This document shows positions 49,707-61,800 of a stretch of DNA of 64,000 nucleotides, piece by piece. The position numbers and the translations under genes were made by a program. The DNA is from Myxococcales bacterium 68-20 (GTDB lineage Bacteria > Myxococcota_A > Polyangia > Polyangiales > Polyangiaceae), in NCBI GenBank assembly GCA_001899635.1, contig MKVQ01000004.1, positions 190,023-254,022 of the forward strand. The letters are read 5' to 3'. The notes under the pieces were generated by a model, which ran no database searches, had not been told where the DNA came from, and saw only the letters and a list, made by a program, of their open reading frames with translations. How positions within the stretch are numbered: position 1 is the first letter of the stretch; each line of letters begins with the position of its first letter.

Positions 49707-50054
49707 ATGAAACACGACCACATTGGACCGAGCGCTGCAGGCTCGGTCCGGCACCAGCGTGTGGAGTCCTCCATCCTCGAGGAGCTCCGTTCCATCCTGA
49801 GAGACGACGTCACCGACCCCGAGCTCGAGGGCGTCCGGTTGACCGCCATCGTGCTCTCTCCCGACAGCAAGAACGCTCGCGTGCACTTCGCCGTGCCACG
49901 CGGTCGTCCGCGCACTGCGGTCCTTCGCGCGTTCACGCGCGCGACGGGCTTCCTGCGTGGCCGCCTCGCCGAGGGCGTCGAGCTGAAGAGGACGCCAGAC
50001 CTCCGCTTCGTCTACGAAGCAGAGATCGATCCGTCGGGCAGCGACGAGGGCTGA
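49707..50054 (+). CDS. rbfA: Ribosome-binding factor A
   Basis: 115 residues. It matches RbfA: RHQRVESSILEELRSILRDD, VTDPELEGVRLTAIVLSPDS and ARVHFAVP correspond to the KH-like fold with the R-V-x-x-x-I-x-x-E-L opening and the DPxL-x-x-V-x-L/V-S-x-D core. RbfA helps 30S subunit maturation and cold adaptation by acting on the 16S rRNA helix. Family length is ~110-130, so it is complete. The usual neighbours nusA-infB-rbfA-truB are absent; here it is one base ahead of rtcB, an unusual pairing. Confidence 0.88.
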   Translation: MKHDHIGPSAAGSVRHQRVESSILEELRSILRDDVTDPELEGVRLTAIVLSPDSKNARVHFAVPRGRPRTAVLRAFTRATGFLRGRLAEGVELKRTPDLRFVYEAEIDPSGSDEG

Positions 50055-50055
50055 C

Positions 50056-51216
50056 TTGCCTCGAACCCTGTTCGATCCCGGGCGCGGCCATCGCGTCCCG
50101 GTACACGTGTGGGCGCGCGACGCCTCGGAAGAGACGCTCGCGCAGCTCGAGCGCATCGCATCACGCCCCTACGCTGCGCTTCGCGTGGCGGCGATGGCGG
50201 ACGCCCATGTCGCCGAGGGCGTCGCGGTCGGCACCGTGTTCGCCACCGAGCGGACCGTCGTTCCTCGCGCGCTCGGCGGCGACCTCGGATGCGGCGTTGC
50301 GGCGGTCCAGCTCTCGGTACGAGCGAGCGAGCTCGATCGCGCCACGCTCGATCGCGTGGTGAGCTCGCTCGTTCGCGCGATCCCTGCCGGCGACGCCGTC
50401 CACCGTGGTCGCGGGCTGGCCGTTCCCGACGCGCTGTTCGAGGACGACCTCTCGACGCGCTCGCTCGAACGAACGCGCGATGCGCTCTCCGCCAAGCACC
50501 TCGGAACGCTCGGAGGAGGCAACCACTTCCTCGAAATCGACCGTGACGTCGACGACAACGCATGGCTGCTCGTCCACTCCGGCTCGCGCGGGCTCGGTGC
50601 CGCCGTCGCCGCTCATCACGTGCGAGCGGCGGAGGCGATCGATCCCGATCCGCTCGCCGGCCTCGACACGGACTCCGACGCGGGACGCGCCTACCTGGTC
50701 GATCTCGCGTGGGCGCTCGCCTTCGCGCGCGCCAACCGCGAGCTCCTCGCGCGACGCGCGATGCTCGTCCTGAGCGATGTCCTCGCCCAGGAGGTCACCG
50801 CCAAGCGCGAGGTCGACATCCACCATAACTTCGTCGCGCGCGAGCGATGGGAGGACCGGGATCTCTTCGTCCACCGGAAGGGCGCCGTCGCCGTCCCGCG
50901 CGGTAGTCCGGCGATCATCCCGGGCTCGATGGCGACGGCGAGCTACCTCGTCTCGGGGCTCGGCTGCGATCTCGCATTCGGCTCGTGCTCACACGGTGCC
51001 GGACGCGTGATGACGCGCCGAGAAGCGCGCGCCCGGATCCGTCCCGCGGCGCTCGTCCAGACGATGCGCCGGATCGCCTGGCCGGATCACCTCGCACGCC
51101 GGCTCGTCGAGGAGGCACCGGCGGTCTACCGCGACATCGGCGAAGTCCTCGACGACCAGCGCGATCTCGTCGCGCGGGAGCGCCGTCTCGAGCCCCTCGC
51201 GGTGCTCAAGGGTTAG
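50056..51216 (+). CDS. rtcB: RtcB-family RNA ligase
   Basis: 386 residues, TTG start one base after the rbfA stop. Motifs in order: MADAHVAEGVAVGTVFATE, PRALGGDLGCGVAAVQ (GVDIGCG-like), LGTLGGGNHFLEI, VHSGSRGLG, DIHHNF, VHRKGAV, IPGSMATASYLVSG and SCSHGAGRVMTRREA. In characterised RtcB the His of the HGAGR motif is guanylylated before joining 2',3'-cyclic phosphate or 3'-phosphate to 5'-OH RNA ends, using Mn2+ and GTP. All metal- and nucleotide-binding motifs seem present. The family is often involved in RNA repair; no rtcA/rtcR is nearby. Confidence 0.93.
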   Translation: MPRTLFDPGRGHRVPVHVWARDASEETLAQLERIASRPYAALRVAAMADAHVAEGVAVGTVFATERTVVPRALGGDLGCGVAAVQLSVRASELDRATLDRVVSSLVRAIPAGDAVHRGRGLAVPDALFEDDLSTRSLERTRDALSAKHLGTLGGGNHFLEIDRDVDDNAWLLVHSGSRGLGAAVAAHHVRAAEAIDPDPLAGLDTDSDAGRAYLVDLAWALAFARANRELLARRAMLVLSDVLAQEVTAKREVDIHHNFVARERWEDRDLFVHRKGAVAVPRGSPAIIPGSMATASYLVSGLGCDLAFGSCSHGAGRVMTRREARARIRPAALVQTMRRIAWPDHLARRLVEEAPAVYRDIGEVLDDQRDLVARERRLEPLAVLKG

Positions 51217-51769: not shown

Positions 51770-52630
51770 ATGGGTGGGCTACGGCCAACGGGCTTCTGCG
51801 TCGCACTCTTGCTGGCAGCCGCACCGAGCTGCGCCCTCTTCACGGATCTCGGGGGGTTCTCCGGCACCGCCGATCCGGCGAGAACCGAGGGCGGCGCGCC
51901 CGACGACGGAGACGCCGGACCGGCGCCCACGCTCGACGCGATGCAGACAGCCGACACCGAGACCGACGCGCCGACGCGGGAGCGCGCGTGCGCGAAGCCG
52001 CACACCTTCTGCGCCGACTTCGATGTCTCGGAGGATCCGAAGTACGGCTTCACCGGCGGCGGCACGGAGCTGAGCGGCTCGCTCGCGACGAACGCGACCG
52101 ACTCCTGGTCGTCTCCCCGCTCGCTCGTCGCGAGGGTCACGCCCGTCAGCGGCAGCAGCTCACCCGCTGCGCTCCTGTCCGCGTCCGTCGGCGCGACCCC
52201 GGCGATTCACATCGCCTTCCGGATGAAGCTCGAGGCCAACGACTTCGCGAATACCAGCGTCATCGTCGCGGTGCTCAACGCCTACTCCGACGCCGAGGGC
52301 TTGAAGCAGGTGCAGCTCACCCTCTCGGGCACGGAGGTGAACCTCCGGGCCGCGCGCTTCGATCCGAGCACCGGCCAGACGGCGGTCGTCGCGGACAACA
52401 AGGCGCCGTTCACGATCGACGACGCTTGGCACCTGTTCGAGATCGATGCCTCGACGGTGGGCGCTCATCCCCTCGAGCTGAAGATCGACGGCGTCTCGCG
52501 GCTGATGAACGCGACGGTTCCCGGAAGCGTCGTGGACCAGTACGTCGCCTACTTCGGGCTCTGGTATCCGCGGCCGGTCGCAGGCGCCTGGCAGGTACGG
52601 CTCGACGACGTCGCGATCGATACCCGCTGA
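51770..52630 (+). CDS. Jelly-roll-like lipoprotein, paralogue of 22833-23669
   Basis: 286 residues from ATG 51770 (ACGGGA upstream). Lipobox AAPSC; linker with DDGDAGPAPTLDAMQTADTE; then CAKPHTFCADFDVSEDPKYG, the same FCAxFD opening as the earlier lipoprotein, and a beta-sandwich (AIHIAFRMKLEAN, HLFEIDASTV, GAWQVRLDDVAIDTR) like a LamG/jelly-roll carbohydrate-binding domain. No catalytic residue can be named. Confidence 0.76.
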   Translation: MGGLRPTGFCVALLLAAAPSCALFTDLGGFSGTADPARTEGGAPDDGDAGPAPTLDAMQTADTETDAPTRERACAKPHTFCADFDVSEDPKYGFTGGGTELSGSLATNATDSWSSPRSLVARVTPVSGSSSPAALLSASVGATPAIHIAFRMKLEANDFANTSVIVAVLNAYSDAEGLKQVQLTLSGTEVNLRAARFDPSTGQTAVVADNKAPFTIDDAWHLFEIDASTVGAHPLELKIDGVSRLMNATVPGSVVDQYVAYFGLWYPRPVAGAWQVRLDDVAIDTR

Positions 52631-52644
52631 CGTCGAGGTCGTCC

Positions 52645-52671
52645 CCGGGGCGGCCTTACCGTCCGCCCCGG
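52645..52671. terminator. Bidirectional terminator-like hairpin
   Basis: CCGGGGCGG (52645-52653) pairs with CCGCCCCGG (52663-52671) around a 9-base loop, 14 bases past the stop of the jelly-roll gene and between convergent genes. GAGTCGACTC, a 10-base palindrome, follows at once. Confidence 0.65.
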
Positions 52672-52704
52672 AGTCGACTCCGTGCTCACGTCGAGCGACG
52701 CGCG

Positions 52705-53508
52705 CTACCGGGGAAGCGTGAGGAAGTACGTGTACGCGGGGACGTCCTCGGGATCGAGCTCGAAGAGCTCGGGCACGGCCTTCTTCGCCTTGGCGGGCGA
52801 CTCGAGATCGGCGAGGCGCCGGGCGCGGATCCGGCCCTTGCCGCCTCGACCGATCGTCTCGAGCGCCGTGTCCTTGAGCACCACGGTGTCGGCGTCGAGA
52901 CCACCGACGAAGATGCCTCCGTCCCCGCCGACGTCGCCGATGACCGTCAGCGCCGCGAGCGTGCCACCGACGACGAGGAAGGCGTCGGCATACACGTGAC
53001 GCGCCGTCACGTCGCCCGTGACCACGAGGTTCGGAAGGCCCGAGACGCGACGAAGCGCGACATCGCCCTTCACGCGCAGGTCGCCGACGACCACCACCGT
53101 GCCCGAAACGTCGCGCAGCTCGTCGAGCGTGACGCTCCCGAGCGCGAGCGAGTACGGCTTCGGAAGGCCCGACACGTCGCCGTGAGGCGGATCGAACCCG
53201 ACCGCCGCCAGCGCATCCTGCACGACGGCGAGCGTCACCGGGCGCAGCGGGCTCGCCTTCGCCTTCGCGGGCGCCTTCGCCTTTGCGGGCGCCTTCGCCT
53301 TCGTCTTCGCCTTCGCGGGCGCCTTCGCCTTCGCCTTCGCGGGCGCCTTCGCCTTTGCGGGCGCCTTCGCCTTCGTCTTCGCCTTCGCGGGCGCCTTCGC
53401 CTTCGCGGGCGCCTTCGCCTTCGCGGGCGCCTTCGCCTTCGTCTTCGCCTTCGCGGGCGCCTTCGCCTTCGTCTTCGCCTTCGCGACCTTCTTCGTATTT
53501 GCCTTCAC
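52705..53508 (-). CDS. Histone-H1-like tail fused to a polymer-forming beta-helix domain
   Basis: 267 residues. Residues 1-~88 are nearly all Lys, Ala, Pro and Thr (KAKAPAKAKTKAKAPA units), like the C-tail of histone H1 and bacterial Hc1/AlgP/HU-tail repeats that bind DNA. Residues ~95-235 have a ladder of beta turns (GTVVVVGDLRVKGDVALRRV, GLPNLVVTGDVTARHVYADA, LTVIGDVGGDGGIFVGGLDA) typical of bactofilin/polymer-forming cytoskeletal beta-helices. C-terminus LFELDPEDVPAYTYFLTL. No signal, so it acts in the cytosol. Could bridge nucleoid and a filament; the combination is unusual to me. Confidence 0.75.
   Translation of the reverse strand: MKANTKKVAKAKTKAKAPAKAKTKAKAPAKAKAPAKAKAPAKAKTKAKAPAKAKAPAKAKAKAPAKAKTKAKAPAKAKAPAKAKASPLRPVTLAVVQDALAAVGFDPPHGDVSGLPKPYSLALGSVTLDELRDVSGTVVVVGDLRVKGDVALRRVSGLPNLVVTGDVTARHVYADAFLVVGGTLAALTVIGDVGGDGGIFVGGLDADTVVLKDTALETIGRGGKGRIRARRLADLESPAKAKKAVPELFELDPEDVPAYTYFLTLPR
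53256..53500. repeat. Tandem GCCTTCGCGGGC-type repeat coding the Lys/Ala tail
   Basis: About 245 bases built of 12- and 18-base units (GCCTTCGCGGGC, GCCTTCGCCTTC, GTCTTC) in near-perfect array, inside the preceding gene. Such arrays are prone to slippage, so the tail length probably varies between isolates. Confidence 0.85.
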
Positions 53509-53633
53509 GGCTGCAACTGATCTCGGTGGGCTTCCGGCGTCAAGCGCGCGTCCACCGACCGTGAGCGGCGCTCGCGCCCCCCCGCAGTGGTGCGCGTAGC
53601 ACCGGAGCTCGAGCGTAGAGCGGGCCCGCGCAT

Positions 53634-53831
53634 CAGGGCACCCTGACCGTCGACCCGGAGTACGACCGGCTCCTCGGAGCTCTCGGCCCGACCTTCGGCA
53701 CCGGCGTGCGCATCGGCACCATCAACCTCGGAGCGAACGGAACCTGGTCGCCGCCGATGCTTCATGGCGAGGCACGGCCCGGCAGCACGCACATCCTCGT
53801 CGGCGGCTTGACGCTCCGCGTACAGAACTGA
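53634..53831 (+). pseudogene. 3' remnant of an unknown gene (65 aa)
   Basis: An open frame from after the stop at 53616 to TGA 53829 reads GTLTVDPEYDRLLGALGPTF and ends HILVGGLTLRVQN. Roughly 86% of its third positions are G/C, as in genuine genes here. No ATG/GTG with a ribosome site starts it (only GTG 53706 is possible and would give 41 residues), so the N-terminal part seems lost. Not recognised. The other bases of the 53509-53844 gap show nothing. Confidence 0.5.
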
Positions 53832-53844
53832 GGGACCGCCAGGG

Positions 53845-54492
53845 CTACGACTTCGGCTGCGTGGCAGCGTCATCGCGGATCAGATACCGGACGACGAGAT
53901 CGACGAGCTGTTTCACTAGCGCCTCGAGATCGAGGCCGGGTGGACGCTCGAGCAAGCTCGCCAGCATCGTCGCACGAACCGACTGGTACGCGACGAACGC
54001 GGCCGCTTCGACGTCGTCGGACCGAAGATGCTCGCGGCTCTGGAGAAGGAAGCCGCGCACGACGTCGATCACGCGAAGGTCGAACGCGTGCACGCGCTCC
54101 GCGTTGGCCACCCGCAGTCCCTCGATCGCGAGGACCCGGTGCAACGCGGGTGAGGTCTCGTAGAGCTTCGCCAGCCCGCGCACCACACGCTCGACCATCT
54201 CGCGCGGCGCGGTCCCCAGGTTCTCCTGCGAGAGGACGTCTTGCATCATCGCCAGCGCGCGCGTGAACTCGCGCTCCTGGAGCGCGTTCACGATCGCATC
54301 GCGGTCTTCAAAGTGGTGGTAGAGCGTGCCGACGCTCACGCCGGCGATCTCGGCGATGCGTGTCGTCGTCGCGAGGTCGAGGCTCTCTCGTTCGAGAATT
54401 CGAATGGTGGCCTCGAGGATCGCGTCGATCGTGGCCTGCGCACGGGCCTGGCGCGGCTTGTTTTCCGGGGTCTTCGTTCGTCGCGAGCTCAT
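53845..54492 (-). CDS. TetR-family regulator
   Basis: 215 residues from ATG 54492 (an upstream frame extension is not supported). N-terminal TetR helix-turn-helix: ARAQATIDAILEATIRILER, TTTRIAEIAGVSVGTLYHHF, EDRDAIVNALQEREF. The C-terminal ligand domain is helical (MVERVVRGLAKLYETSPALH, VAYQSVRATMLASLLERPPG). Divergent from the desaturase gene with 109 bases between; a perfect dyad there is a likely operator. By analogy with FabR/DesT-type neighbours it may respond to a lipid, but that is inferred. Confidence 0.9.
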   Translation of the reverse strand: MSSRRTKTPENKPRQARAQATIDAILEATIRILERESLDLATTTRIAEIAGVSVGTLYHHFEDRDAIVNALQEREFTRALAMMQDVLSQENLGTAPREMVERVVRGLAKLYETSPALHRVLAIEGLRVANAERVHAFDLRVIDVVRGFLLQSREHLRSDDVEAAAFVAYQSVRATMLASLLERPPGLDLEALVKQLVDLVVRYLIRDDAATQPKS

Positions 54493-54532
54493 CGAGGAAA
54501 ACCTGAAACCCCCTGGAATGGGCACGGGCGGT

Positions 54533-54553
54533 CGTCGGATCCACAATCCGACG
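54533..54553. promoter_or_regulatory. Putative TetR operator
   Basis: CGTCGGAT-CCACA-ATCCGACG is a perfect 8-bp inverted repeat with a 5-base spacer, between the divergent TetR gene (start 54492) and the desaturase gene (start 54602). Size and symmetry fit a TetR dimer. Confidence 0.65.
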
Positions 54554-54601
54554 TGCCGCGGGAGCATCACTAACGCACTCCGCCGGCCAGGCAAGGTGGA
54601 C

Positions 54602-55480
54602 ATGAAACTTCGTTATCGCGCCGACATCCGAACCCTAGCGTGGGCGCTCGTTCTCATGCCCGGGCTCGTCGCGGCGCAATACCTGCGCCCCTCGCTCGCG
54701 GGTTGGCTGATGCCGCTGTCGATGTACGCGGCGTACTGCGCGGCCGTCATCGCGCACAACCACAACCACGTCCCCACGTTCACTGGGCGGACCACGAATC
54801 GGCTCTTCTCAGCGTGGATCTCGATCTTCTACGGCTTCCCGACCTACGGCTGGATCCCGACGCACAACTTGAACCACCACCGCTTCAACGGCCGTGAAGG
54901 CGACGTCACGGTTCTCGTCAAGCCGGGTGAGCCCGACAGCGCATGGATCGCGCTGACGCACTTCTTTCGCTCCACGACCACGCAGGGCCCTATCCTCGCA
55001 CGCTACCGGCAGATGCTCTACGGCCGCTCGAAGGCCGCCTGGCTTGGGATCTGGGGCCAGTACCTCGTCGTGTACGGAGCCCACGCCGCGATGGCGTGGC
55101 TCGCAATCGCGCGCTTCGGTCTGGGACGCGGCGCCTTCGTCTACCTCTCGGCCCTCGGGATCCCCGCGTTCGGCGCGCTCTGGGGGATCATGTTCACCAA
55201 CTGGGTGCAGCACGTCGGATGCGATCCGACCTCACGCTTCAACCACTCGCGCAACTTCGTCTCGTCCTGGATGAACGCGCTCGTCTTCGACAACGGCTTC
55301 CACACCGTCCACCACGACAAGGCGAACCTCCACTGGAGCCTCACGCGACGAGCACACGAGCAGATCGCACACCACATCGATCCGCGACTGAACGCGAGCT
55401 CGATCTTCTCATATGCGTTCGAGACGTACGTCCTCCGCCGCGATCTCGGTCTCCACGAGCTGGCGCGAGAGACACGCTAA
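54602..55480 (+). CDS. Membrane fatty-acid desaturase/hydroxylase
   Basis: 292 residues from ATG 54602. The three His clusters of the di-iron family are present: HNHNH (residues ~57-61), HNLNHH (~93-98) and HTVHH (~237-241), with a further HEQIAHH. Membrane helices flank them (WALVLMPGLVAAQYL, MPLSMYAAYCAAVIA, LVVYGAHAAMAWLAIARF, FVYLSALGIPAFGALWGIMF). Family members introduce double bonds or hydroxyls into acyl chains or carotenoids using O2. Substrate not readable. Probably controlled by the divergent TetR protein. Confidence 0.88.
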   Translation: MKLRYRADIRTLAWALVLMPGLVAAQYLRPSLAGWLMPLSMYAAYCAAVIAHNHNHVPTFTGRTTNRLFSAWISIFYGFPTYGWIPTHNLNHHRFNGREGDVTVLVKPGEPDSAWIALTHFFRSTTTQGPILARYRQMLYGRSKAAWLGIWGQYLVVYGAHAAMAWLAIARFGLGRGAFVYLSALGIPAFGALWGIMFTNWVQHVGCDPTSRFNHSRNFVSSWMNALVFDNGFHTVHHDKANLHWSLTRRAHEQIAHHIDPRLNASSIFSYAFETYVLRRDLGLHELARETR

Positions 55481-56000: not shown

Positions 56001-58844
56001 TCATTTGCCGGCGCAGGGACCGCAGACGCCGTTGGTGCAGATCTTCGAGTCGCATTCGCACGGGTTCTGCACGTCGCAAGGGGAGCAGGCGAGGCCCGCG
56101 CCGTCGGAGATCTTCGTGAGGAGGCAGCGCACGATGGGCTGCGGACTGCTCCGCTCGAACTGGGAGAGCGAGCACGAGCCGCCCTTCGGGACGGTGTCAC
56201 CGTTCGGGCAGGTCGCGGCATTGGTGGTGATGACTGCAGCGTCGAGCGAAGCCTTGGAGCCGAGATCGACCTTGACGCACGGGACTGCCGCCTGCCCGGT
56301 GATGAAGTTCGCCACCGTGGTGTCGGCCGTCGGAATGAGCGCGCCCTCGAGCGCTGCGCCGTTGAAGTTCGCGTCTTCGACCTTGGCCCCGCAGAACGAC
56401 GCGTCGCGGAAGACGGAGTTGGGGCCGAACACGGTGTCCTTCAAGGTCGCTCGGTGGAAGACCGCGTTCGTGAAGTCCGCGCCCGTCATGTTGAGCCCCG
56501 TGAGGTCTGCCTCCGTGAAGTTGACGTCGGTGAACCGCGCGGCGGCAAACGTCGAGCCCGTGCGCGGAGCCGGGAAGGTCACCGCCGCTCGGACGAAGAG
56601 CGCGCGGGAGAAGCGGCCGTTGACGATGCTCGACGGAGCGAAGCGTGTTCCATTGAACGTGGTGACGTTCGCCCCGGCGTCCGCGATGACGTCATCCATC
56701 TTCGCGTTCGTCAGGTCGGAGTACACCACGGAAGCGCCGTTCATCACGGCGCCGGTGAGGTCGGCGTAGCGGAGGTCCGTGTTGCGGAAGGTCGTCCGAG
56801 CCAGATCGGCGTTGTTGAGCTTCGCCTCGGCGAGCTTCCATCGCTCGAACTGGAGGCCTCCGAGCTTGAGCCCGCAGAGCGTCTTCCGCGCGAGGTCTCG
56901 CTGATCGAGCCCGATGGCGGACGCGTCGCCTTGGGCGTCGGTGAAGTCGATGAACCGCCAGGAGGCGAGCGGGATCTGCTGCAGGCCGAACCGAGTGCCG
57001 GCGAGCTTGGTGAGCGAGAGGTCGTCCCTGCGCGGCTCTTTGCAAGGATCGGCGACCAAGGACTGACCGGGCGGGAGCTTGAAGGTGACGTTGTCCAGGT
57101 AGGCGCTCGTCAGGTCGGTGTTCGTGATCGCCGCGTCGGTGATCTCGCCGATGCCGACGAACGACGTTCGCGCGAAGGACGCACCGTCGAACGTCGAGCT
57201 GATGAGGCGGGCATCTCGGAGGGTCGCGTCGTCGAACTTCGCCCGCGAGAAGTCCATGAACGCGAGCCTCGCCCCAGTGAGGTTGGCGTGATCGAAGCTC
57301 GCCCGGTGCGCGATGTTCCGTGCGGCAGCGAACTGCTCACCGGCGATGTTCGTCCGCGTCAGATTCGCGTAGGAGAAGTTCGTATCGGTGAGGTCGGTGA
57401 AGAGAATGAACGAGTCCGTCAGGTCGGCGCGATCGAGGCGCGCTCCCGCCATCGTCCCGCGAGAGATGTCGAGCTGCGGGAGCCTCGCGTCCCGGAGGTC
57501 GATGCCCTGGAGGTTGCAGGAGTGGCAGGACTTCGTCTCGACGACGAGGGTGCGGATCTCCTGCACGCTCGCGGAGACGAACGTCTGAGGAAGGTTGTCT
57601 CCGCAACGGACGTTCTGGGTGAGGACGGTCTTCCTACCGGTGTAGTTCTCGCCGCTGTAACCGTTGAGGACCGAGTTGCAGGAGAGCTTGATCGACTTCG
57701 TCCCGCCGAGGAACCTCGTCGCCGCGCGGATGTTCGGGGGGAACGCGTTCGCCGCGTTGATGACGAGGGCCTTTCCGGAGTAGTCGCAGTTCTGGAAGAA
57801 CGCGACCTCTCCGGCGCGCAACGTCCCGAGCGAGGCGGCGTCGGAAACGAAGCGCATCGCGAACGTGAGCGGCGTACGCTCAGCGTAGGTGCGCGTGAAG
57901 ATGATGTCGCCCTCGTTCTGCCAAACCACGGTTGGGCGCGACGGCTGGAAGGCGACCGGATCGAACGTGAAGGGCCGCGGGTTCCCGAGCAAGGTCCACG
58001 TCGTGTGGCGGTCGGGATTGACGCTCGACTCGAACGTGAGGAGATCCTCGGTCGAATCGCCCTTTCGGCCGCCCGTCATGACCTGGCCGCTGGCGCCCCC
58101 TCGGAGCTGAGCCAAGCCGCCCACGTTCTTCACCGTGATGAACTTGCGAAGGTCCTGCGGAGGTTCGCTCGTGAACGGATCGACGTAGACGAACGGGTCA
58201 CGCTCGACGGCGCCGCTGACGACTCCGGTCGGCGTCGTGACGTACCAGGCGTGCGTCTCCGGCATCGACGTCGGGTTGGTGTTGCGCTCCTCGTCGGTGC
58301 ATTGAACCGCGGGGCCCGCTTGGAGCGCCGTCGGCGCCTGTGCCGACATCGGGTGGAGGAAGACCGGGACGAGCGGGGCGGTCGCGCCGTCTCCCGTCGT
58401 CGCGCGCGCGACGCTGACCGTGTAGTCGCCGGCGGGCAGCGTCGCTGACGCGCACTCGGACCCATGGGCGACGTGGAGGACGACCTCGTTCTTGTCGTCG
58501 CGAACCGTGACGTCGGAGACCGACGCGTCGCGATCGCGGAGGCAGACGTCGAGCGTCTGGTCGGACTGCAGGCGGTAGGGAACGACGTCGACGCCCGGAA
58601 CGCCCGTGTCGTGGGGGGGCGCCTCGGTCGCGTTCTCGAGCTGAAGCAGGACGGTCGAGGAGAGGGTGGCGCGAAGGACATCGTCCCGCGAGAAGTCACG
58701 CTCGAAGTACGCGGCCTCGTCGTCACTCGGCGGTCCGGGTCGCTTCGGGCCGACGTCGGTGTCCGGCTCGCACGCAGGTGAGATCAGGCCGAGCCCGAGG
58801 CCGGCGGCGAGCAGCAGGATTCGTTTGATCATGGCGTTGGTCAT
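56001..58844 (-). CDS. Pentapeptide-repeat lipoprotein with a crystallin-like domain
   Basis: 947 residues from ATG 58844 (GAGGAG upstream). Signal with lipobox SPAC. Residues ~20-330: beta domain with a GDYTVSVARATTGDG region. Residues ~350-430: beta/gamma-crystallin or I36-like motif (EVAFFQNCDYSGKALVINAA, YSGENYTGRKTVLTQNVRC). From ~440: pentapeptide repeats A(D/N)LxG in two runs (LQGIDLRDARLPQLDISRG, YANLTRTNIAG, NADLARTTFRNTDLRYADLT, EADLTGLNMTGADFTNAVFH). C-terminus Cys-rich (CSPCDVQNPCECDSKICTNG). Transcribed 11 bases after the big Tat gene. Extracellular role expected. Confidence 0.85.
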   Translation of the reverse strand: MTNAMIKRILLLAAGLGLGLISPACEPDTDVGPKRPGPPSDDEAAYFERDFSRDDVLRATLSSTVLLQLENATEAPPHDTGVPGVDVVPYRLQSDQTLDVCLRDRDASVSDVTVRDDKNEVVLHVAHGSECASATLPAGDYTVSVARATTGDGATAPLVPVFLHPMSAQAPTALQAGPAVQCTDEERNTNPTSMPETHAWYVTTPTGVVSGAVERDPFVYVDPFTSEPPQDLRKFITVKNVGGLAQLRGGASGQVMTGGRKGDSTEDLLTFESSVNPDRHTTWTLLGNPRPFTFDPVAFQPSRPTVVWQNEGDIIFTRTYAERTPLTFAMRFVSDAASLGTLRAGEVAFFQNCDYSGKALVINAANAFPPNIRAATRFLGGTKSIKLSCNSVLNGYSGENYTGRKTVLTQNVRCGDNLPQTFVSASVQEIRTLVVETKSCHSCNLQGIDLRDARLPQLDISRGTMAGARLDRADLTDSFILFTDLTDTNFSYANLTRTNIAGEQFAAARNIAHRASFDHANLTGARLAFMDFSRAKFDDATLRDARLISSTFDGASFARTSFVGIGEITDAAITNTDLTSAYLDNVTFKLPPGQSLVADPCKEPRRDDLSLTKLAGTRFGLQQIPLASWRFIDFTDAQGDASAIGLDQRDLARKTLCGLKLGGLQFERWKLAEAKLNNADLARTTFRNTDLRYADLTGAVMNGASVVYSDLTNAKMDDVIADAGANVTTFNGTRFAPSSIVNGRFSRALFVRAAVTFPAPRTGSTFAAARFTDVNFTEADLTGLNMTGADFTNAVFHRATLKDTVFGPNSVFRDASFCGAKVEDANFNGAALEGALIPTADTTVANFITGQAAVPCVKVDLGSKASLDAAVITTNAATCPNGDTVPKGGSCSLSQFERSSPQPIVRCLLTKISDGAGLACSPCDVQNPCECDSKICTNGVCGPCAGK

Positions 58845-58855
58845 CTCCGTGCTCC

Positions 58856-61800
58856 TCACGGCGTCGTCGGGATCCATCGCCACAGGCCTGGCTCGCGTCT
58901 CCCACGGAAGACGAGCTCGTTCCAGCCGAGTGAGATGATGTTCTGGTTCGTGTCGAGTGCGAACTTCGCCGCGGCGAAGTTGCGCGTCGTCGCCAGGACC
59001 TCGGGGGAGGTCCGCTTGTAGATGTCGAGGTAGAAGTCGGTCGGGCTCCTCGAGCGCCCTCGGCGCGAGAGGACGTAAATCGCCCCGCTCTCCAGCTCGC
59101 AGCCGACGTCGAGGTACTCGCGGTCGCTCGGGAGCTCGAGGATCGCGGAGCGCGAGCCGCCGGCCTTGTGGAAATAGTCGACCGCCGGCTCGCCCGTCAC
59201 GCCGAACGCCTGGAGGCGTTTGTTGCCGTTCTCGAGGACGATGAAGACATCGCCGTCGAACGCTTGGCAGAGCGCGACGGCGCCGCGGATGTTCCCGCGG
59301 AGGGTCCCCGGGCCGCTGCGCACGTGCGCGCGAGGAAGACGTTCATCCGAAGCATGGGTGACGGCCACCTGCGGCGACTTGAGCTCGATCACCTCGAGCC
59401 GATCGACGCCGGCGTCGCCGCTGATGATCATGGCGTAGCGGTTGTCGTAGACGGCTGCTGCGCGAACGGTGGTGCTCCCGAGGCGCGCGATCGGCTGGCC
59501 TCTGCGGAAGTCGCTGGCCCCCGTCAGCGAGAGATCGAGCTCGCGGAGGACGTATTGGCCCGTGCTCGCCTCGAGGACGTACGACTTCGGCTCCCGCAGC
59601 GAGTACATCGGGACCACCGGCCTGAGGTCACCGCAGGCGTAGTCCTTCACGTTCGCGTCCAGAGCCCCCTTCTCGACGAAGACGTTCAGGTTCAGGTTCC
59701 GCATCGTGTGGAGCGACGTGCCGCCGGTATCGCTCGAGCGACCGCAGATCGGCAACGCCTGCTCGGCGGCTTGCCACGCGTAGCCGAGGTTTCCATTGTG
59801 CGCGTCGATGCCGATACCGGTCGGCGCGCAGACGATCTCGCTGCCACCGGCGCACGCGTCGGGATAGCCCCCCGGCGGCGCTGTCGGGGCGACCCACTTG
59901 TGGCTTCCACTGACGACGGCGAGCTCCGCCGAGACGGAGTACGTCGTGTCCTTGGTGATCGGGATCGTCTGGTTCTTGACGACGCACTCGACCGAGGCGA
60001 ACGCCGCACCGTTCGGCACGGCGTTGACGAAATCTTGCTGTCCGAACCCGACGAGGAAGCCGGTGCTCGAGAGAATGCGGAGGACGGCCTTGTACTCACC
60101 GCCGCTCGGGACGCCGGTGACGTCGACCTCGAAGCCCGCGGCTTGAGTGAGGAACGCATAGTCCCCGCTCGCGGCGAGGGACATGCCCGTCTTGTTGACG
60201 AGCATCAGCTCGTACCGGACTCCCGTCTGCGGAAGCCCGAGGACGTCGGACGGCGTAACCTTGACGCGGACCGTATTCGTCGCGCGGATCTCCGTCGTGT
60301 AGACGGCGTTCGCCTGGGACAGACCTCCGATCGTTCGGCCGATCGATTGCGCCGTGTCGGCCGCGTTGAGCGCGAAGATGGCGGTGCCCGCGATGGGGAT
60401 CCCTTTCGCCGCGGTCCCTGCGGCGATCGCGCCGCCCCAGAGCAAGGCAGTCGACGCCTTCGCGAGCGCGAGCTTGAGGGCCTGGTTGCCCACCCACACG
60501 CCGAGGTTGATCCATTCGGCGCTGCCCGTCGTGACCTGCGAGTAGATGTTCGCTCCGAGCTTCACCGCGAGGACGGCGGCCGGGACCAGCAGCTCCCGCT
60601 TCAACTGCAATGTCGTGCCGGCGTCGAAGAGCGCGCCGTAGGCGAGCGCGATCGTCGGGACCCCGAGCTCGCAGATCAGCGTCGCGACGAGGCCTGCCGT
60701 CGCCGCCTTGCCACGCTCGTCGTACTGCTTGGGCATGTCGAGGAACGAGAGCGAGCCGACGAAGACGCCGAGCGAGGTGGCCTTGTCCGGGATCCGCGCC
60801 GTGAATCGCTCACGCGCGACCGTGCCGGCGACGGGGATCCCGAGGAGCCAGAGTGCGGGCGAGATCATCCCGCGGTGCTGGAGATACTCGGTGTCGAGTG
60901 TCGTGTTGTCCCCGGCGTCGGCGCCGATCTCGGCGCGTTTGAGGAGCTTTCCGTTGGCGTCGAAGAACCCGCAGTAGACGGAGACCGTCCGGTTGTACGA
61001 GTTGCCGACGTCGAACGAGACCCGCCGGCCCTCGCCGTCGACGCGGAGACCGCTGACGCATTGGCCGCCGGTCCAGTTCTCGTTGAGCGGCGCAAACGTG
61101 TACGCCGAAGGCGCGGTCGGACCTTGCAGGAGCGGCGGAGCGTCCGGGAGCGGTTCCGCGCGCGACGAGCGCGACTTCTCGACGTGGAAGCGTTTGTCCT
61201 CGAGATCGGGGTCGTCGTAGATCGCACGCATTGCGCGGACGACGACGTCCGAAACGGCCCGCATCACCTCGGGGGGGAACGCGTAGTACCACTGATACGC
61301 GGGCTTCCCGTCGACGAGGATGGGGCTTCCGTCCTCGTTCGTCTGCGGGACCTTCTTCCCGTCGGGGTCGAGGAGGTAGGTGCCGCGCGCCCACGAGGTC
61401 CGTGTCGGACTCTCGTCCGGGTTTCGTGCCCGGCCGAGGCGGGCGATGAGCCTGGCGAGGATCTGCATCTCGACCGACTGGGCGTCGAGGTGATGCAATA
61501 GGAGCGCGGCGACGTTCCCATCGAGCGCGAGGATGTCGGGGTGATGGAAGACCAGGTATCGAGCGGCGTCCTCCTCCTCGACGATCAGCGATAGGTCGGA
61601 GATGTTGGAGACGTCTCCGTCGGCGCTCGAGCCAGCGAGGACGTGGAGGCCCCCGCTCCTCGCCGGGACGAAGTTGAATCCGTATTTCGCCCGACGCGTC
61701 GCGTGCACACCGTACGACTGTCCCTTGATCGCTTGGCCCATCAGGATGGCCGGCTCCGGGATGTGGATCGCGGCGAGGGCGAGCGCCCGCATCTCCGTCC

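Follow-up and report, generated by a model that had tools for sequence, protein, structure and literature searches.

The window, a 64,000-nucleotide stretch of the genome of Myxococcales bacterium 68-20, encodes on its reverse strand a 267-residue protein that joins a long, lysine-rich tail resembling histone H1 to an acidic core, which is predicted to be a beta-solenoid of the bactofilin fold. We give about even chances to the reading that this protein is a cytosolic scaffold or adaptor whose tail keeps it attached to polyanions, with nucleoid DNA the likeliest of them. The parts of the gene, with the evidence for each, are as follows.

52705–53508, reverse strand: whole gene (267 amino acids, GTG start, stop included); open reading frame list, selection on the core, orthologs L009 and L010
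53251–53508, reverse strand: N-terminal tail, residues 1–86, a K/A/P array of net charge +32; composition, tandem array at 53253–53485
52708–53250, reverse strand: core, residues 87–267, net charge −4, with a short helix, beta-solenoid and C-terminal flank; ortholog alignment, AlphaFold2, composition
52825–53166, reverse strand: solenoid part, residues 115–228; trimmed AlphaFold2 model, with Thermus bactofilin as best structural match
53191–53250, reverse strand: helix predicted at the start of the core (residues 7–16 of the core, within these 20); block pLDDT of 86 and 82 over core residues 1–20
52708–52824, reverse strand: C-terminal flank, 39 residues, kept among orthologs; alignment, pLDDT mostly below 50

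A first-pass annotation made from the letters alone had called this reading frame and given it a KAKAPA/KAKTKA tail of about 88 residues; the frame is confirmed, and the tail comes to 86. No in-frame start codon lies between the preceding stop and the GTG. Against the ortholog L009, the 181-residue core has a dN of 0.086 and a dS of 0.61, and against L010 a dN of 0.109 and a dS of 0.73 (NG86); its differences from L009 number 13, 14 and 68 at codon positions 1, 2 and 3. The low dN relative to dS against the orthologs indicates that the gene is real and that its core is under purifying selection. A promoter scan of 52400–54000 found no sigma-70-like site, and the four terminator-like sites in that interval all lie within the array on the opposite strand, as repeats of one motif.

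Both orthologs come from Labilithrix sp. ACE_MYX5 (G003), which belongs to the same genus as the window genome (G000; 11.9 Mb in 52 contigs), and their identities to the window protein are 87% (L009, in the core) and 84% (L010). Close orthologs were found in G003 alone: two of 58 relatives' genomes match, the window's own included, and peptide patterns of the window protein were found at two loci among 84,980 species scanned. The ACE_MYX5 assembly holds the locus twice, with the contig of L010 ending at the lysine array, which suggests either an assembly broken at the repeat or a mixture of strains. Because the sequence downstream is similar, L009 and L010 are probably strain variants of one locus. 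Inspection of the open reading frame lists around the window gene, L009/L010 and L092 revealed no evident shared neighbours that would point to an operon or a conserved neighbourhood.

The tail consists of 36 alanines, 32 lysines, 9 prolines, 5 threonines, 2 valines, 1 asparagine and 1 serine, so that K, A or P fill 77 of its 86 positions; it contains no acidic residue and no large hydrophobic residue other than the valines, one of which is the GTG start and is read as methionine. Long K/A/P repeats free of acidic residues are expected of H1-like tailed proteins such as PhaF, AlgP and Hc2, and the histone-H1-like character proposed at first pass is borne out by the composition. So is the repeat array proposed to encode it: Tandem Repeats Finder reports an array over 53253–53485 with scores of 251–303. 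A leader is followed by units of 18 (KAKAPA), 24 (KAKAKAPA) and 30 nucleotides (KAKTKAKAPA), and therefore gain or loss of a unit leaves the frame intact. The units also differ between species. Of the three-residue stretches that follow APA, all nine in the window read KAK and 10 of the 12 in L009 read KTK, a species-specificity that fits turnover of the array, homogenised separately in each species. Array length, which the first pass had proposed comparing among related strains, could be compared with one ortholog (86 versus 100 residues), since the second ACE_MYX5 copy ends at the tail.

That 100-residue tail of L009 has a net charge of +35 and is attached to a core of net −2; in L011, a more distant relative, a tail of 74 residues and net +29 sits at the C terminus of a core of net −14. 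Tail charge thus stays between +29 and +35 across the three members measured (window, L009 and L011) while the units differ. Among frames of at least 60 amino acids in the window, the richest 40-residue stretch holds 16 lysines here and 6 in the next frame, which argues that the array is no artefact of composition. The full protein also matches Pfam Cornifin and DUF1388 as well as NCBIfam TolA, EntC and others; these matches lie in the tail and were discarded as compositional.

AlphaFold2, run on the whole core with the three available sequences, gave a pLDDT of 61, with a confident helix at core residues 7–16 followed by strands. Foldseek was unconvincing for this model (bactofilin at rank 39, no match reaching E = 0.001), and VIA-align placed Thermus thermophilus bactofilin second, at Z = 6.5. 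A model of the solenoid alone reached a moderate mean pLDDT of 72.9, with two of five models poor. For it, T. thermophilus bactofilin occupies Foldseek ranks 1 (6ria) and 2, with E values of 0.11 and 0.38 and probabilities of 0.94 and 0.28, none of the matches falling below E = 0.001. VIA-align likewise put Thermus bactofilin at the top with 6rib (Z = 11.6, 2.1 Å over 94 residues), and also matched 6ria (Z = 9.8, 2.1 Å over 83 residues) and Caulobacter BacA (2n3d, Z = 9.4, 2.5 Å over 94 residues); tapirin (6n2b, Z = 9.3, 2.8 Å) ranks below 6rib, and the other entries near Z = 9, left-handed transferases or similar, have an rmsd above 11 Å. A search of the PDB with the core sequence returned aminotransferases only, at E = 0.2, and the superfamily profile A5 (described below) had no significant match among solved structures, the best being at E = 0.94 and bactofilin at 2.6. 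At the level of fold, the core holds as a predicted beta-solenoid of the bactofilin type, in line with the beta-ladder that the first pass had placed after the tail.

Bactofilins polymerise through their free solenoid ends, both of them; these ends are uncapped and carry hydrophobic contacts (a C-terminal phenylalanine, F130 in BacA), and polymerisation is nucleotide-independent. For the C-terminal side, an interface that makes polymer contacts is described in PMC12448750. In the window protein, the conserved flank of about 40 residues adjoins the end of the solenoid, with pLDDT below 50 for most of it, and this flank and the helix before the solenoid may cap the ends through which bactofilins polymerise.

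The likeness to bactofilins proposed in the earlier reading holds for the predicted fold and fails for the family. Neither the full protein nor the core matches PF04519 at E = 1 or better, while the window genome has seven matches over the gathering cut-off, this gene not among them; by this curated test the protein falls outside the family. Weak matches to PF04519 occur in the relatives L018, L013 and L012 (E = 0.003 to 0.014, all under the cut-off), and when 13 superfamily cores (A5) were aligned by hhalign to 20 canonical bactofilin domains, drawn from seven genomes, the probability was 66 and the E value 5.6e-5. We conclude that the modelled core is a solenoid resembling that of bactofilins, without belonging to their family proper.

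Its relatives extend well beyond the genus. A profile of the window, L009 and L010 cores matches 13 of 317 genomes of the class at E = 0.01, and only G000, G003 and G105 below 1e-20; the G105 match, L011, is the closest relative outside the genus, with a core 37–39% identical and the tail at the opposite end. Widened to 13 cores, the profile A5 matches 33 of the 317 genomes at E = 1e-4 or better, at up to ten places per genome and at four in the window genome. By these matches, the window core belongs to an unnamed beta-solenoid superfamily of its class, whose members are either single-domain proteins or modules in long frames with ankyrin repeats (L012, a PF12796 match under the cut-off) or leucine-rich repeats (L035, L036 and L037, by eye). 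No superfamily member tested reaches a Pfam cut-off for the solenoid, and the libraries searched give this large myxobacterial superfamily no name. One match, L024 (G007, E = 6e-4), does not resemble a solenoid in appearance.

Two further observations concern this superfamily. Many members carry a YN(H/D)(G/Y) motif followed by a histidine-bearing motif, a feature that is missing from the window lineage. A paralog in the window genome, L004:1138-1800 (G000:C19), is 84% identical to L119:1426-2112 from G165, in another family of the class; this identity lies far above that of most members, and horizontal transfer is possible.

Several other identities were considered for the protein and rejected. 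As a secreted choice-of-anchor-A or ice-binding-like adhesin, the core reaches PF20597 at E = 0.005 and 17.2 bits, under the cut-off of 23.8, and L011 scores 18.4 against TIGR04215, under the cut-off of 29, in a domain search for which L018 and L021 were slightly trimmed in frame; no export signal is visible by eye in the window protein. As a phage baseplate part, the core matches the PHROG wedge subunits phrog_13163 (E = 1.2e-4) and phrog_1469 (E = 0.0025), and no relatives were found in phage records or viral contigs; we take these matches to reflect a shared solenoid pattern, distant kinship being possible. PADLOC found no anti-phage defence match among four proteins tested, and a plasmid-borne origin was set aside, the six matching plasmid records having E values between 0.8 and 8 and coverage of the query below 80%.

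We then asked how often lysine-rich tails recur, scoring any 40-residue stretch with at least 12 lysines. Such a stretch is present in 5 of 73 distinct superfamily frames, these being a subset of all A5 matches: at the N terminus in the window protein, L009 and L137, and at the C terminus in L011 and L142. Because only five members have one, the tail is no part of the superfamily's common function. The background comprised 80 stretches from 12 genomes (1,459,875 bases and 1,049 crudely called genes), not drawn at random; seven such stretches occur in it, and removal of the two that are superfamily genes (L011 and L137) leaves five, two of them rich in acidic residues. The window lineage (window, L009 and L010) was left out of the comparison because it was chosen for its tail. 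Outside it, tails occur in 3 of 70 members versus 5 of 1,049 background genes (Fisher p = 0.010, or 0.004 without the two acidic tracts), and within family f22 alone in 3 of 37 versus 3 of 492 (p = 0.005), where the 70 should read 69 and the 37 should read 36, as L033 and L098 are one gene counted twice.

A tree was built from the 58 members whose cores span 85 residues or more. It groups the window protein with L009, L010 and L011 (SH-aLRT 96) and places L142 apart from them; L137 has a long branch, and its position is uncertain. If L010, whose tail is unreadable as the contig ends there, is left out, the tail label requires three changes; scored as tailless, L010 raises this to four, and the branches with good support demand two or more. 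Gain or loss of tails has therefore happened on at least two occasions, and the tail switched ends between L011 and the window protein. Clustering of the label on the tree is no stronger than chance would give (62 of 500 shuffles scored as low).

Comparable tracts are found on other genes of the window genome. L039:421-1749 (G000:C5, ~249241-249483) ends in some 80 residues of KTKAPTKAK repeats, attached to an unrelated domain whose only Pfam match is compositional, and L002:3-488 (G000:C1, ~157148-157633) is a 162-residue open frame made up almost wholly of KKAP-type repeats, which looks like an AlgP-like tail. The lysine-rich module is thus not private to the superfamily.

How might such a protein work? 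A cytosolic location, already suggested at first pass, is likely because no signal peptide is seen by eye before the lysine array. The tail, presumably disordered, would by its composition bind polyanions whatever their sequence, with nucleoid DNA as the likeliest ligand. It would thereby hold the core, together with the core's partners or assemblies, on the nucleoid, as PhaF and AlgP hold storage granules; the acidic core would be the part that binds a partner or assembles, possibly with itself. On this reading, a solenoid with its own DNA-binding tail would join scaffold and nucleoid by the most direct route possible, with no need for an adaptor. The recurrence of such tails, at either end, opens the idea to comparative tests, as several natural pairs with and without a tail exist.

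The tail could also act more directly: the core might form bactofilin-type polymers from which DNA-binding tails project like a comb and connect the filament to the chromosome. This is the idea of the first pass in full, and it appears fairly unlikely. Bactofilin is the best structural match of the core, bactofilins are reported to show N-terminal tails along their polymers and to bind membranes cooperatively through them (PMC12448750), and BacNOP and PadC are described as organising ParABS in Myxococcus (PMC5703909). However, the predicted helix and conserved flank may cap the ends of the solenoid, the gene is no PF04519 member, ordinary bactofilin matches elsewhere in the genome could fill that role, and superfamily members are also found as modules of long frames alongside ankyrin or leucine-rich repeats. 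In its broadest form, this proposal makes the tailed members a family of direct nucleoid-cytoskeleton couplers, in which assembling bactofilin-fold subunits bundle or position DNA with no PadC-like adaptor, and in which tails were gained repeatedly at either end, only charge and attachment mattering; we regard that form as rather doubtful too. The tail may instead be a neutral by-product of an expanding GC-rich repeat with no specific role, which turnover of the array between species and the other long lysine-rich tracts of the same genome (L039 and L002) would fit. We consider this unlikely, as tails with different units recur on separate superfamily members, more often than on background genes, and as the three members measured retain a charge of +29 to +35 despite those differing units.

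Other ligands for the tail carry lower odds. AlgP, with its 154-residue KPAA-rich tail, is reported to associate with polyphosphate granules and to be required for their spacing (PMC9239181), and the window protein might likewise sit on or space polyphosphate or other granules; with no granule gene recognised among the neighbours tested and nothing in the core that suggests granules, this is quite unlikely. Binding of RNA or ribosomes, after the manner of lysine-rich tails on translation-related proteins, is improbable given a core with no RNA-related domain, even though one background tract lies on L086, which by eye reads like a ribosome-rescue protein of the peptide-release-factor type. An electrostatic membrane anchor on a solenoid scaffold is highly improbable: membrane binding by BacA is reported to need K4 and K7 of its N-terminal peptide and also the hydrophobic M1 and F2 (PMC12448750), and the tail has no large hydrophobic residues except its two valines.

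The preferred reading, a solenoid scaffold tethered to the nucleoid, has precedents for each of its parts. Bactofilins (Caulobacter BacA, Thermus bactofilin, Myxococcus BacNOP) share a solenoid of similar size to that predicted here, a cytosolic location and a disordered terminal extension that could target the protein; the window protein differs in lacking a PF04519 match, in its extra helix and flank, and in bearing an 86-residue polycation rather than a short membrane peptide. In Myxococcus xanthus, bactofilins are reported to be linked to chromosome segregation through the adaptor PadC and ParA (PMC5703909). The Pseudomonas phasin PhaF is described as combining a cargo or assembly domain with a histone-like tail of AAKP repeats that binds DNA unspecifically and tethers the cargo to the nucleoid (PMC5658603); in PhaF, an amphipathic helix that serves polyester granules takes the place held here by a beta-solenoid, and the tail of the window protein is N-terminal. 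AlgP (AlgR3) of Pseudomonas aeruginosa has a long, KPAA-type, H1-like tail of variable length, as described in PMC9239181, but it is C-terminal and follows a predicted alpha-helical N-terminal domain.

Lysine-rich arrays are also known from Hc1 and Hc2 of Chlamydia and BpH1 of Bordetella, with gain and loss of units in frame reported for Hc2 (PMC2848022); Hc2 is nearly all array, whereas the acidic solenoid makes up two thirds of the protein here. Larger archaeal orthologues of the segregation protein SegB combine DNA binding with a predicted beta-helix, which the authors compare with bactofilin at Z = 3.6 to 3.9 (PMC12284271); SegB is not known to be homologous to the window protein, is archaeal and partners with the ATPase SegA. 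A search of the literature on bactofilins with DNA-binding, nucleoid, lysine-rich or histone features showed no title on such a protein among those listed. The parts are known singly; nothing in these searches described them combined, or the combination recurring with the tail at one end or the other of a bactofilin-like solenoid.

The window holds other features of note. A 960-residue protein with pentapeptide repeats (PF00805, E = 7.7e-34) is encoded at 56001–58883 on the reverse strand, and an RbfA-like gene (PF02033), directly followed by one for an RtcB-family RNA ligase (under NCBIfam curated cut-offs), lies at 49707–51216 on the forward strand. At 53845–55480, a TetR-family regulator on the reverse strand overlaps, as called, a fatty-acid desaturase frame on the forward strand, forming a divergent pair with provisional starts. 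A second tandem array, at 1372–2583, has 2.9 copies of a 420-base unit with 74% matches.
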